A DNA stretch of 39,704 nt from positions 1-39,704 of IMG/VR virus record IMGVR_UViG_3300042691_009007; one strand, given 5' to 3'. The translations under genes and the position numbers were made by a program. The notes under the pieces are model-generated. The model saw nothing but the letters and a program-made list of their open reading frames with translations. It did no database searches and was not told the origin of the DNA. Shown here piece after piece: positions 19,374 through 28,052 of the stretch. This DNA is from a virus. Positions within the stretch are counted from its first letter, which is position 1. The number at the start of each line of letters is the position of its first letter.

Positions 19374-19397
19374 AGCAGGTGAACCAATATATAGTTG

Positions 19398-19832
19398 ATG
19401 TCATGGTATTATGAGAATCAACTGGTGGAACAACTGCCCGAAGACTGCACAGGCTTCGTTTATATCATCACAAACCTCACCAATCAGCGCAAATACATAG
19501 GCAAAAAACTAGCAAAGTTTAGCAAGACCACATACAGAGTACACAAACTTAAAAACGGCACTAAGAAAAAAAAGAAAATTAGGCAAAAGGTTGATTCAGA
19601 CTGGCGTGAATACTATGGTTCATCGCCGGAACTTACCAAAGACGTAGAGCAATTAGGCGCTGAAAACTTCCACAGAGAAATATTATTTTATTGTAAATCT
19701 AAGGCAGAATGTAGTTACATTGAAGCTCGCGAGCAGTTTACTCGTCGTGTGCTAGAATCAGATGAATACTACAATGGACACATTCAAGTTCGTGTTCATG
19801 GCAGTCATATTAAAGGCCGATTAATGGGTTAA
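19398..19832 (+). CDS. SegE-like GIY-YIG endonuclease
   Basis: Protein of 144 residues from ATG 19398 (a TTG three bases earlier is a less likely start). The GIY-YIG core is in variant form: GFVYIITN (about 19-26) and RKYIGKK (31-37), followed by a basic Lys-rich loop (KNGTKKKKK), then WREYYGSS, L-x-K-D-V-x-x-LG, SYIEAREQF with the likely metal-binding Glu, and YYN near the end. This order matches T4 SegE-type proteins found widely in T4-like phages. Members of the family are free-standing homing or DNA-nicking endonucleases; activity here is inferred. The ribosome site is weak (AGGTG about 15 bases upstream). It is followed by the long structured non-coding region. Confidence 0.8.
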   Translation: MSWYYENQLVEQLPEDCTGFVYIITNLTNQRKYIGKKLAKFSKTTYRVHKLKNGTKKKKKIRQKVDSDWREYYGSSPELTKDVEQLGAENFHREILFYCKSKAECSYIEAREQFTRRVLESDEYYNGHIQVRVHGSHIKGRLMG

Positions 19833-21250: not shown

Positions 21251-21466
21251 TTAAATCAACGGCATTTTAGTTTCTTTACTCATATCAATGTTTTCTTTTA
21301 TCACAGTATACATTGCTGAGCGATCATCGTAGCTGTACTGATGTAACAGCTGATCTACAGTTACACCTCCCCGCATGTACCAACTGAGTCTCATCAACTC
21401 AGTTTTAAATTCTTTAATTTCGTTTTCTAGCCTAACTAGATATTCTTCAATACCGCCCGCAGACAA
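21251..21466 (-). CDS. Small frame after gp26, probably expressed by -1 frameshift
   Basis: Frame of 71 residues after the gp26 stop. Read alone it would need a TTG start at 21466 with no visible Shine-Dalgarno, or an internal ATG (M25, before RLSWYMRGG). The frame stays open upstream into the end of gp26, exactly -1 relative to it, and a canonical slippery heptamer lies there. It is therefore better read as the C-terminal extension of a gp26 fusion of about 349 residues. The segment is helical and charged (IEEYLVRLENEIKEFKTEL), then SWYMRGGVTVDQLL. By position it could replace T4 gp51, the hub-assembly factor encoded next to gene 26; no sequence similarity is claimed. Confidence 0.65.
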   Translation of the reverse strand: MSAGGIEEYLVRLENEIKEFKTELMRLSWYMRGGVTVDQLLHQYSYDDRSAMYTVIKENIDMSKETKMPLI

Positions 21467-21471
21467 TCCAA

Positions 21472-22299
21472 TTAGGCGCCTACGAAAAAATTTGATTGAT
21501 CCAATTCTATTTTAATAGTGTCTTGATGGCCGCAACTGTCGCAAACAATAGATTTTTCAGGCGGTGTCCAACTGTCTTTCATTTTGTCTGCGTGACTATT
21601 AAGAGATTCTGTAACATGCACATCTGTGTTTGTTATCCATTCTTTAATGAATTGCGGATCTGTAACAATTTCAGATCCTATGCTTACACTTTCTATACCT
21701 GCACTTGCAATGTCTAATTTTAATAAAGTTAAATCTTCTAATATATCTTTGTTTGTTTTAGCACGTTCGGCATCATCTAATATACTTTGTATTTGAATTA
21801 CTTTTCTTTGTAGTTCAAAATTTCTAAGAGCAAAACTAGTTGATTGCTTGTAGGTCATGGGCCGTAATGTAACTGTTAGGTCGTGTACTTTAAAACTATT
21901 GTTGTAACGACATTGTGAATAAAATTCGATAATATCTGACAAATTGATTGTATATGTGTTTTCTGCGCCGCAAGAAGAACACGCTCTTGTTGCTTCTAAA
22001 GTATTACCATAAGTGGCAATTCTAATAGCAGACAGTAAAATATCCATATCTAACATGGAAATATCCCACGGATCTACAATATTAGGACAACAACTGGCAA
22101 TAACTCTTGCAGTACTTTCTCCAGATAGCAGAGCATCGGCAGTTTTCAGCAGAATCTCGTCCATGCCAGTCATACCATAAATTGGTAATTTAGTAACATC
22201 ACCTTCTATACTGCCTTTATGGTTATAAATTCCTTGACTAGGCAAACTGATAAAAATTTTAGGCTGTCTAAAATATTTTTGTAATGGGTTGGCAGACAT
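21472..22299 (-). CDS. 26: Baseplate hub assembly protein gp26
   Basis: Protein of 275 residues; T4 gp26 has 208. The opening NPLQKYFRQPKIFISLPSQG and LPIYGMTGMDEILLKT, SGESTARVIASCCPNI, PWDISMLDMDILLSAIRI are typical of the T4 gp26 family, needed to assemble the central hub. Two CxxC pairs, C107-SS-C110 and C253-DS-C256, could form a zinc ribbon and would bracket the helical middle. ATG is preceded by GGAG and by a perfect minus-strand late promoter. The last codons before the stop contain a -1 slippery heptamer leading into the next frame, a pattern like that of the tail-assembly chaperones lambda G/GT. Confidence 0.85.
   Translation of the reverse strand: MSANPLQKYFRQPKIFISLPSQGIYNHKGSIEGDVTKLPIYGMTGMDEILLKTADALLSGESTARVIASCCPNIVDPWDISMLDMDILLSAIRIATYGNTLEATRACSSCGAENTYTINLSDIIEFYSQCRYNNSFKVHDLTVTLRPMTYKQSTSFALRNFELQRKVIQIQSILDDAERAKTNKDILEDLTLLKLDIASAGIESVSIGSEIVTDPQFIKEWITNTDVHVTESLNSHADKMKDSWTPPEKSIVCDSCGHQDTIKIELDQSNFFVGA
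21487..21493 (-). promoter_or_regulatory. Candidate -1 ribosomal frameshift site A AAT TTT
   Basis: In the gp26 frame the codons are TCA AAT TTT TTC, giving X XXY YYZ with X=A, Y=T in the correct phase. Slippage at N270-F271 moves ribosomes into the frame of the 71-residue segment, adding F-R-R-R-L-I-G before it, five codons before the gp26 stop. A GGCGCC palindrome lies 8-13 bases downstream; I see no long stimulatory stem. Confidence 0.6.
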
Positions 22300-22362: not shown

Positions 22363-24408
22363 ATGGTAGATCGCGCAGCCGCACAAATGATAGGCGAAGA
22401 AGTAGCCAACTCTTTGAAAAGAACCGGATTTGCTTCAGGTAGTATGACTGGGCAAGCCATGCGTGACCAAGCATGGACTGGCATTACTAATGCTGGCTCA
22501 GCTCTTGGAAAAGTAAGCACAGGCGCTATGGATTTTAAAGGCGTCATAGAACAAGTTACAAAAACTTTTGGTATTTTTGGTGGTGTTGGTGACGTTTTAG
22601 GAACTGTGTTCAGCGGAACAATTAATCATCTCAAAGACATGAACGATGCTATGTTACTTTCAGCTCGTTCAGGAGTCTCATTTAATCAAAATTTATTCAA
22701 TTATACAAAAAGTCTAGCAGATGCTGGTATTAGTTTTGAAAACTTTAACAAACTGATAAGCACCGCAGGCAAGCAAATATTTGGATCAGGATTAAACGCT
22801 CAACACTCGGCCGATATATTTTTAAATGTCAGCAAATCATTGATGGAATCTAGAAATGTACTAACAATGAACATGATGGGTATTGATATGACCGAATTTC
22901 AAGATCAAATAGCCATTACTACAGATTTATTCAAAGGGTTAGATCGCACAAGATATGATGTGAATAAACTTATAGTAGAATCTACAATAGCTGCCGCTGT
23001 TGAAATAGACAACATGGCTAGACTTACTGGACGAAGTAGACAAGAAATACAAAAAGATCTTGACCAACAGCAAAGTTCAAAACTGACTAGGATGGCCAGA
23101 CAGTCCTTAGACGGCAAACAATTGGAAAATCTCAACCGAATGGGACCAATGTTAGCACAGTTACCAGAAGGTATGAGTGATGTATATGTACAACTGATGA
23201 GATTTAAAAATACTGTAACTAAAGATGCAACTGAACAGTTAAAAGCAATGGATATGGTAGCGCCAGGAACAGAAAGACTCATGAGACAAATGGCAAATAC
23301 CAAAGACGAAAAAGAGCTAGAACGTCTAAAATCTGAATTTCAATTTTTGTATGCTAAAGGTATGGCAGACGCCCAAGCTAAAGGTACGTTTGATATTATG
23401 CCAACAATCCAAAACGGAATTGCTAAAGGTATAACAGAAAATATGGCAGGCGGTAAATCTAACTATGGAATGTCTCTTAGCCAAATGTATAGAGATTCAG
23501 GCGGAAACTACGAAAAATTCTTAGAGTTAGAGCAGTCTGCTGCCAGATTTCGAGCAGATATGCAAAAGAATATTGGACTTACTAATCAAGCAGGTGGTTC
23601 TGGCGCCGTAGTGAGCCAGATACTACAACTTTTTGATCGTTCTCTTAAATTAGGTCCGCAGGCCGTAGCTGCTTTTATGAAGAGTTTTGAAGACACATTA
23701 GGTGAAAAATTAACTGGTGTTGATTCGCAAGGTATGATGGGCAAAATCTTAGACTTACAAAACATGACTCCTGAACGGGCAAAAGAAATTTATAATAAAT
23801 TAATTCCAAGTACAGCAGTTGATCTTGATAAAGGACGCAAAGAAGGCAATGTTCCAACAGACATGCCAGAACGATACGGAGTTGCTGCCGATAAACCTTT
23901 GCATGTTAGTGTAACTAATTTTCCTCCACTAACACCAGCTGATCAATCTAATTCAACTGACCCAAATAGAAGAAGAGCAGGTGGTTCTTTAAACGCCACC
24001 GGATCAACCAAAATAGACAAATGGTTTGAAAATTTTGACGGTATGGAGTATATACTTGACAACGATGAAAGTGTTGTTAGGAGAGATCAAAGTGTAGCTT
24101 TTGCTATAGATGCGCTAACACAAAATGGAATGTTGCCAGCTATGGCAGCAGGTTTACGAGCAGCAGCAAATACATCTGGCTCAAACGACGATGCTTTAAG
24201 AGAACTAACTAGTGTTATTTCTTCGCTACCAAGCCAACTTGTTCCATCAAATTTAGCCGGTGTAACACAGCCAAACGAAGACAAAGAAATATTAGCACAG
24301 TTGCTAGATAGATTAAATACTAAGATGGATACACTTATTAATACTGTCGAAGACGGGTCTAAAGGAACTGTTAGAGCAGTTAGAAGCCAAAATAATCTAA
24401 TTGGCTAA
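22363..24408 (+). CDS. Tail tape-measure-like structural protein
   Basis: Protein of 681 residues, mostly helical. An N-terminal hydrophobic Gly-rich segment (about 60-95: FKGVIEQVTKTFGIFGGVGD, VLGTVFSGTINHLKDMNDA) and a long helical middle with Gln/Met/Lys repeats resemble phage tape-measure proteins. The C-terminal part (about 545-600: KIDKWFENFDGMEYILDNDESVVRRDQSVAFAID) looks like the end of such proteins in marine phages, followed by a short coiled segment. T4 gp29, which sets tail length, has 590 residues. Location beside gp26 and before the portal supports a tail or internal virion role; the identification as gp29 is inference, and an alternative is another internal virion protein. GAGGAAAA precedes the ATG. 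Confidence 0.55.
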   Translation: MVDRAAAQMIGEEVANSLKRTGFASGSMTGQAMRDQAWTGITNAGSALGKVSTGAMDFKGVIEQVTKTFGIFGGVGDVLGTVFSGTINHLKDMNDAMLLSARSGVSFNQNLFNYTKSLADAGISFENFNKLISTAGKQIFGSGLNAQHSADIFLNVSKSLMESRNVLTMNMMGIDMTEFQDQIAITTDLFKGLDRTRYDVNKLIVESTIAAAVEIDNMARLTGRSRQEIQKDLDQQQSSKLTRMARQSLDGKQLENLNRMGPMLAQLPEGMSDVYVQLMRFKNTVTKDATEQLKAMDMVAPGTERLMRQMANTKDEKELERLKSEFQFLYAKGMADAQAKGTFDIMPTIQNGIAKGITENMAGGKSNYGMSLSQMYRDSGGNYEKFLELEQSAARFRADMQKNIGLTNQAGGSGAVVSQILQLFDRSLKLGPQAVAAFMKSFEDTLGEKLTGVDSQGMMGKILDLQNMTPERAKEIYNKLIPSTAVDLDKGRKEGNVPTDMPERYGVAADKPLHVSVTNFPPLTPADQSNSTDPNRRRAGGSLNATGSTKIDKWFENFDGMEYILDNDESVVRRDQSVAFAIDALTQNGMLPAMAAGLRAAANTSGSNDDALRELTSVISSLPSQLVPSNLAGVTQPNEDKEILAQLLDRLNTKMDTLINTVEDGSKGTVRAVRSQNNLIG

Positions 24409-26522: not shown

Positions 26523-27401
26523 ATGACTGACCGAACACAATTTGAAGCCATGCTTGAGGCTTTGATCAACGAAGATCAAGAACAAGCAAAAGAGATTTTC
26601 CACAACATCGTAGTTGCAAAATCTCGTGAAATTTACGAAGAATTATTAAGCGAAGACTTTGACGCTAAAGACGACGAAGACGAGAAGCACGACGGTGTTG
26701 ACGAAGCGTTTGGCGAAGAAGACAGCGAAGACGACAGCGAAGAACCAGCTGACGACATGGAAGGCGATGATGCTGAAGATGATGCTGAAGACGACGACAT
26801 GGGAGATGACGACGTTGGTGGCGATGCTACTGATGACTTGATTGGCGACGTTTCTGACGAAGAAGGCTCAATGTCTGACGAAGAGCAATCAGATCGTATT
26901 CTTGATTTAGAAGACGCTCTAGAAGAATTAAAAGCAGAATTTGAACAACTAATGGCTGACGAAGGTGACGAAGGCAGCGAAGAAATGCCAATGGACGGCA
27001 TGGATGCTGGCGCAGACATGATGGGCGGAGATGAGCCTATGATGGGTGCTGATGCTGGCGAGCAAGATGAATTAGCAAAATTCATGGAATATGTTGACAA
27101 AGTAGCACTTCCAAAGCACGGCGATAATGGTGCAAACACCAAATCAATCGTAGCTGGTAAGAACAACATGGGCGGCACAACAGCTAATATTGCCAAGAGC
27201 TTTTCAACAGAAAAGGGCGGCACACAAGGCGGTTTGCTAAATCCTAGCACTAAGGAAGAAAACTTTGGTAATGTAAACGTTCCAGGCGGCAACGCAGGCA
27301 AGACAGCTTTCAAGAAGAAAGAACCTGGCCACGGTGCTGAGAAGAAAGGTGCCGGCGAAAATGCTGACAACAAGTCATCATTAATTGGCTCACGTAAGTA
27401 A
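26523..27401 (+). CDS. 67: Prohead core protein, gp67-like, greatly enlarged
   Basis: Protein of 292 residues. The first 50 residues (FEAMLEALINEDQEQAKEIFHNIVVAKSREIYEEL) share the layout of the T4 gp67 N-terminus: a helix with L-x-A-I/L, D, then A-x-x-x-F and I-x-E-E. It is followed, as in gp67 (80 residues), by an extreme acidic tract (about 50-110, nearly all Asp/Glu with Gly/Ala). Unlike T4 gp67 it continues with a helical segment (LDLEDALEELKAEFEQL), a Met/Gly/Asp-rich region and a Gly/Lys/Asn-rich basic tail. gp67 is an internal scaffold component needed for head shape and is degraded by gp21. Order portal, small gene, this gene, gp21, gp22, gp23 matches T4 20-67-68-21-22-23. GGAG precedes the ATG. 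Confidence 0.75.
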   Translation: MTDRTQFEAMLEALINEDQEQAKEIFHNIVVAKSREIYEELLSEDFDAKDDEDEKHDGVDEAFGEEDSEDDSEEPADDMEGDDAEDDAEDDDMGDDDVGGDATDDLIGDVSDEEGSMSDEEQSDRILDLEDALEELKAEFEQLMADEGDEGSEEMPMDGMDAGADMMGGDEPMMGADAGEQDELAKFMEYVDKVALPKHGDNGANTKSIVAGKNNMGGTTANIAKSFSTEKGGTQGGLLNPSTKEENFGNVNVPGGNAGKTAFKKKEPGHGAEKKGAGENADNKSSLIGSRK

Positions 27402-27422
27402 TTAGACGAGACTATTAAAAAT

Positions 27423-28052
27423 ATGTCTTTATACCTCCGAGAGAATCTCAGTTTCAACGAAGCCAAAATGATCGTTGAGTCTGATGACAAAGATGGGAAA
27501 AACTTATACATGTCCGGGATTTGTATCCAGGGCGGTATAAGAAACGCTAACCAGCGTGTTTACCCTGTGAATGAGATTGGCAAGGCTGTCAAAACCCTGA
27601 ACGATCAGATTCAAAACGGTTATTCAGTTCTCGGAGAAGTGGATCATCCAGATGATCTAAAAATTAATTTGGATCGCGTCAGTCACATGATAGTAAACAT
27701 GTGGATGGACGGTCCAAATGGTTACGGGAAGTTGAAAATACTTCCTACCCCTATGGGACAACTAATTCGCACTATGCTGGAAAGCGGCGTGAAATTAGGA
27801 GTTAGTTCACGCGGATCCGGAAACGTCAAAGATGACGGTTCCGGTGAAGTATCAGATTTTGAGATTATCACAGTAGATATGGTAGCTCAACCTAGTGCTC
27901 CTGGAGCATATCCAACACCAATTTATGAACACTTGATGAACAGTCGCGGTGGTCTTAATGCCTTACGCATAGCGCAAGAGGTCAAGGGTGATCCAAAAGC
28001 ACAAAAATATCTCAAAGAGAGCTTATTAGGTATAATAAGCAGACTCCAATAA
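27423..28052 (+). CDS. 21: Prohead core protease gp21
   Basis: Protein of 209 residues (T4 gp21: 212). Prohead serine protease motifs are visible: catalytic-type His in GEVDHPDD (H75) and Ser in GVSSRGSG (S128 or S129), with the VDMVAQPSAPGA block (about 151-161) that follows in T4-like members. It matures the prohead by cleaving after Glu at I/L-x-E sites in gp22, gp23, internal proteins and itself. The ATG at 27423 has only a weak ribosome site; an in-frame ATG before IVESDDKDG (M16) is an alternative start. The gene lies 21 bases after the gp67-like gene and 13 before gp22. Confidence 0.95.
   Translation: MSLYLRENLSFNEAKMIVESDDKDGKNLYMSGICIQGGIRNANQRVYPVNEIGKAVKTLNDQIQNGYSVLGEVDHPDDLKINLDRVSHMIVNMWMDGPNGYGKLKILPTPMGQLIRTMLESGVKLGVSSRGSGNVKDDGSGEVSDFEIITVDMVAQPSAPGAYPTPIYEHLMNSRGGLNALRIAQEVKGDPKAQKYLKESLLGIISRLQ

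Follow-up and report, generated by a model that had tools for sequence, protein, structure and literature searches.

In phage lambda, many short (G) and few long (GT) copies of the tail assembly chaperone (TAC) bind the tape-measure protein, and neither form is present in the virion (PMC5009743). The same 2016 review describes TAC frameshifting as widely conserved, with T4 excepted, and T4 gp26 and gp51 are both listed as hub assembly chaperones (PMC3004832). According to the PRFect paper, which refers to Vladimirov et al. 2022, some T4-like phages use a short and a fused long gene. PMC12846349 refers to the same work for poly-T signals of frameshifting in the TAC-N genes of such phages; the statement in a sequence-only reading of the DNA analyzed here, that no frameshift was described for T4-type gp26, therefore appears to be out of date. 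That DNA, hereafter the window, is the whole of record IMGVR_UViG_3300042691_009007, a virus contig of 39,704 bases. Its gp26 homologue very probably encodes one TAC in two forms, the longer made by a −1 frameshift on the heptamer T TTT TTC. Comparative sequence evidence supports this proposal: the slippery site is invariant, the −1 product is constant in length, under purifying selection and without a conserved start codon, and a covarying hairpin lies at the standard distance.

The gp26 protein matched PF12322 (T4_baseplate; E 5e-13; 49.6 bits versus a curated cut-off of 24.5) and phrog_150 (baseplate hub; 6e-16), and its AlphaFold model was confident and resembled predicted phage baseplate hub assembly proteins; all structure predictions were run with alignments of the window and contig sequences only. 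The 3′ end of the gene reads GAT CAA TCA AAT TTT TTC GTA GGC GCC TAA. The −1 frame stays open over 86 codons, starting 37 nt upstream of the gp26 stop and running to 21251, giving a predicted fusion of 272 + 77 = 349 amino acids. The locus comprises the following elements:

21472-22299, minus strand: gp26 homologue (open reading frame [ORF] 22299-21472), the zero-frame short form of 275 amino acids and putative TAC N domain, with two CxxC pairs (PF12322, phrog_150, 80 relatives).
21487-21493, minus strand: A AAT TTT, the heptamer chosen in the sequence-only reading; present, not conserved (AGT, GAT and GGT variants).
21484-21490, minus strand: candidate slippery heptamer T TTT TTC, in phase with gp26.
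21472-21474, minus strand: zero-frame stop TAA, three sense codons past T TTT TTC and within the 5′ arm of the stem; its position varies in relatives.
21430-21477, minus strand: predicted stimulatory stem-loop with arms at 21467-21477 and 21430-21440 (covariation, folding z).
21251-21490, minus strand: −1 frame extension FFRRRLIGL...MPLI, 79 amino acids from the heptamer plus stop, the predicted helical T domain of the long form.

The relatives used for comparison were the best 80 IMG/VR matches to the gp26 homologue, with proteins 41-71% identical. NNT TTT TTC G was in phase in the window and in 80/80 of them, with the zero-frame stop one, three or four codons on. A AAT TTT is in phase within gp26 at 21493-21487, as had been claimed, and is overlapped by T TTT TTC, which lies three bases further on (21490-21484). 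In 52 dereplicated loci, the codon preceding TTT TTC was AAT (41), AGT (8), GAT (2) or GGT (1), and A AAT TTT was rejected as the shift site because of this variation. Codon bias does not account for the invariant TTT TTC, since the phenylalanine codons elsewhere in the gp26 genes of the relatives were TTT 378 times and TTC 83 times. The probability of TTT TTC in all 52 loci by chance would be approximately 1e-43 if they were independent, which is an overstatement and not a strict probability given their shared ancestry; even so, the 41-71% identity of the proteins indicates that synonymous sites are far from frozen.

The −1 product is under purifying selection, judging from the substitution pattern. 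The ratio of nonsynonymous to synonymous differences (pN/pS; median of 441 overlapping pairs, as uncorrected proportions) was 0.26 in the −1 frame; the remaining two frames of this DNA gave 1.12 and 1.91, and the end of gp26 gave 0.39. Stop codons interrupted the −1 frame in 0/50 loci and each of the other frames in 50/50. The sequence-only reading had described a −1 frame open from gp26 through a downstream frame of 71 residues and had proposed an alignment of related phages as a check; the alignment bore this out, with an in-phase heptamer (T TTT TTC) and an open −1 frame kept in all 80 relatives. Counted from the heptamer, the product was 79 amino acids long in 78/78 complete loci, though the zero-frame stop moves. 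Conservation began at the heptamer, with the residues made at the shift (FFR..LI). The 71-residue frame does lack an ATG, its sole start type being the TTG at 21466, which has few counterparts among relatives. No conserved start codon was found before residue 39 of the −1 product in the window and the 80 relatives, that residue being the first methionine common to nearly all relatives, in WYMRGG. Relatives with an ATG and a ribosome site for the small gene and without the heptamer, named beforehand as the case against a shift, were not found in the window lineage. AlphaFold predicted a confident (predicted local distance difference test [pLDDT] 90), all-helical T domain.

A stem starts 6 nt past the heptamer, which is the standard spacing for a stimulator. 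Its 11-bp consensus pairs GCCTAATTA... with ...AATTAGGC, and the window itself forms 12 bp. Across 35 sequences, 91.9% of cells in the stem were paired, and compensatory changes were present at five pairs; slid versions of the stem were at most 54% paired, and the covariation score was reached by 0/500 shuffles, a count that shared ancestry likewise keeps from being a strict probability. Compared with dinucleotide shuffles, folding gave a mean z of −3.4 at 12-62 nt and −0.45 further downstream. Against synonymous recodings of the −1 frame the mean z was −2.64, with weaker values in control stretches, so the stem is not explained by the protein alone. The window lineage had no upstream Shine-Dalgarno-like stimulator (best mean duplex approximately −2 kcal/mol versus −8.1 in cyanophages).

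From these features we infer how the two forms would be made and used. Most ribosomes would stop at the gp26 TAA and yield the 275-amino-acid short form, and a minority, held by the mRNA stem-loop, would move back by one base at T TTT TTC and read 77 codons more, yielding the 349-amino-acid long form with its T domain. If the system works like lambda G/GT and P2 E/E′, the tape-measure protein may be coated by many copies of the short form and few of the long one, which would recruit tail-tube subunits; both forms would then leave before the virion is completed.

The sequence-only reading had proposed a short and a long gp26 in this lineage. Sequence comparison supports the pair and extends it to jumbo phages, cyanophages and Aeromonas phage AS-szw, so that it is not peculiar to the lineage. 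T TTT TTC followed by an open −1 frame was found in the jumbo myophages 121Q, RaK2, GAP32, CBB, Atu_ph07, Phosso, Paride, PAC2, Vibrio 2.275.O and Hallingskeid, and T TTT TTT with an open −1 frame in XacN1 and RAS14; the −1 frames of the jumbo phages span 71-86 codons. The jumbo-phage records inspected show two genes, or one with the second missing, and in no case does the annotation join them. With the Atu_ph07 protein as query, a scan gave Atu_ph07 itself only. Among cyanophage-type loci, 78/78 of those analyzable carried the same heptamer and an open frame. In these, GGAGGG precedes the heptamer by approximately 9 nt (mean duplex energy −8.1 kcal/mol), with GAG in 70 and GAA in 8. In the cyanophage loci L100-L179, this strong Shine-Dalgarno-like element is placed as a frameshift stimulator would be, and the annotated gp51 ATG is near or inside the downstream hairpin.

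The arrangement also occurs in AS-szw (Straboviridae, Emmerichvirinae), DLP6, Yut3 and S-RIM2, and with variant heptamers in Melnitz-2 (T TTT TTT) and two Rhizobium phages (T TTT TTG). AS-szw (L190:1420-2400), unlike T4, keeps the slippery site, and its T frame is unannotated. In S-RIM2 (L191:1562-1699), the annotated gp51 starts inside the T domain; the open frame reaches back to the gp26 heptamer, and the annotated gene is therefore probably truncated. Vibrio D524 (L188:1400-1760) and Cygsa01 (L097:4309-4482) have a T frame without the heptamer and a stop-start overlap instead, and may rely on reinitiation or on a slip of some other kind. As judged from these genomes, nearly all of the T4 relatives analyzed that fall outside the classic T4 group have the putative frameshift arrangement, which annotations mostly miss.

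The small frame could instead be a separate gene coupled to gp26 termination and translated from its own start, the TTG at 21466 in the window or an ATG after the stop in cyanophages. Such an ATG is near the stop in 71/78 cyanophage-type loci, the window has its in-frame TTG, and public records annotate the frame as a gene of its own (gp51, baseplate hub assembly catalyst). We regard this as improbable, because the window lineage has no shared start codon and its conservation sets in at the heptamer, and because initiation at an independent start would not hold T TTT TTC invariant. In the cyanophages, GGAGGG is approximately 25 nt before the downstream ATG, too far to serve it well, and in the example that was folded (L100), the ATG is within the 5′ arm of a strong hairpin.

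Slippage could also occur at transcription, a known recoding route at homopolymers: RNA polymerase would slip on the conserved run of six T's and the mRNAs with an extra base would encode the fusion. This is less probable still. The run is exactly six T's followed by C in every relative of the window lineage, with no longer runs, and the downstream hairpin would not yet be transcribed when the polymerase slipped, whereas a hairpin downstream and, in the cyanophages, a Shine-Dalgarno-like element, which acts on ribosomes, fit ribosomal slippage. Adjacent frames one base apart are also the usual look of an indel error or of a decayed gene split by mutation. Comparison with relatives refutes that explanation, to which we give practically no weight, since the junction is repeated in 80 other contigs and in complete isolate genomes, with a constant length of 79 amino acids and purifying selection.

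Several observations weigh against a frameshifted TAC at this locus. The downstream hairpin is strong in some jumbo phages and absent in others (GAP32, CBB and Hallingskeid are without it). Fold searches of the PDB with the gp26 and T models matched no solved structure, TACs included, and PDB sequence searches gave nothing useful; no direct comparison with a named TAC structure was made, and divergence could explain the lack of a match. The direct match between the window T domain and T4 gp51 was weak, though in register (probability 34, E 4e-4). Finally, the tape-measure candidate is divergently transcribed, not directly downstream as in lambda and P2, and has no direct family match. The tape-measure protein that the chaperone would coat is probably the product of this divergent gene:

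22363-24408, plus strand: 681-amino-acid divergent neighbour, tape-measure candidate (conserved position; jumbo-phage homologues by profile; RaK2 annotation; CBB virion abundance).

The RaK2 homologue of this protein is annotated as tape-measure-like, and the CBB homologue was abundant in virions (29 peptides) according to a passage of PMC5259590. In the passage of that source giving the virion protein list, CBB_247 is followed by CBB_251, and neither the gp26 homologue of CBB nor its T ORF is present. GenBank labels that gp26 homologue, CBB_250 (L093:2989-3846), a structural protein, though it is not in that passage. A scan with the tape-measure candidate as query gave no matches.

Two further observations concern other parts of the window. 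At 19395-19832, a 145-amino-acid ORF with a TTG start contains a GIY-YIG-like motif (FVYIITN...RKYIGKK) and may encode a homing-type nuclease. A 292-amino-acid open frame at 26633-27511 is largely antisense to an acidic 292-amino-acid ORF at 26523-27401 and is probably a composition effect.

TAC −1 frameshifting is of a known kind, and the hairpin, the cyanophage Shine-Dalgarno-like element and the jumbo-phage breadth are additions that may or may not be new. If the proposed frameshift is correct, T4-like phages outside the classic T4 group come under the general tail-chaperone frameshift rule, and there is a suggestion as to why T4 seemed an exception. This would also correct a mistake made repeatedly in annotating cyanophage and jumbo-phage genomes, in which the second gene is spurious, truncated or missing. 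Clean test sites are provided by this lineage (hairpin without a Shine-Dalgarno-like element), the cyanophages (both elements) and related jumbo coliphages, which are accessible in laboratory E. coli.

T4 genes 26 and 51 (Straboviridae) resemble the window in encoding the PF12322 domain in a short and a long form. T4 gp26 (208 amino acids) is PF12322 alone, whereas gp51 (249 amino acids) is PF12322 at residues 1-201 plus approximately 48 further residues, to which the cyanophage T ORF matches (hhalign probability 96, E 4.5e-9; phrog_634); the window T domain is probably the counterpart of this C-terminal domain. T4 would thus use separate short (26) and long (51) genes. Unlike the window, T4, 44RR and Pm5461 have two separate divergent genes and a gp26 end without a slippery site, and from their sequences they appear to carry this gene pair instead of recoding. 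We think it likely that, in the T4 superfamily (cyanophages, the uncultured lineage of the window, jumbo phages of the RaK2 type or infecting Agrobacterium, and even some Aeromonas straboviruses), frameshifting at T TTT TTC was the original way to produce the gp26 chaperone pair and is still the most frequent one; the cyanophage "gp51" would then be no independent gene but the frameshifted tail of gp26, and T4 the exception, in which a duplicated, fused gene replaced recoding.

Lambda G/GT and P2 E/E′ share with the window a C-terminal extension in the −1 frame near a tape-measure gene, or in the window a candidate for one, but the window chaperone belongs to PF12322 (T4 gp26), resembles no solved TAC detectably in sequence or fold and has its tape-measure candidate in divergent orientation. 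Another comparison is with the T4-like poly-T genes of Vladimirov et al. 2022, as cited in a passage of PMC12846349, and with the Vandenendeviridae and Andersonviridae genes that this passage describes: there too the TAC-N gene has a T-rich slippery site at its end, and the open −1 frame is usually recorded as a hypothetical gene of its own, although the Vandenendeviridae motif is GTTTTT, unlike T TTT TTC. In E. coli dnaX, a Shine-Dalgarno-like element acts at a spacing of approximately 10. The window resembles dnaX in its slippery heptamer and 3′ stem-loop, and the cyanophages also resemble it in their upstream Shine-Dalgarno-like stimulator; unlike dnaX, the heptamer is U UUU UUC, not A AAA AAG, and the window lineage has no such element.
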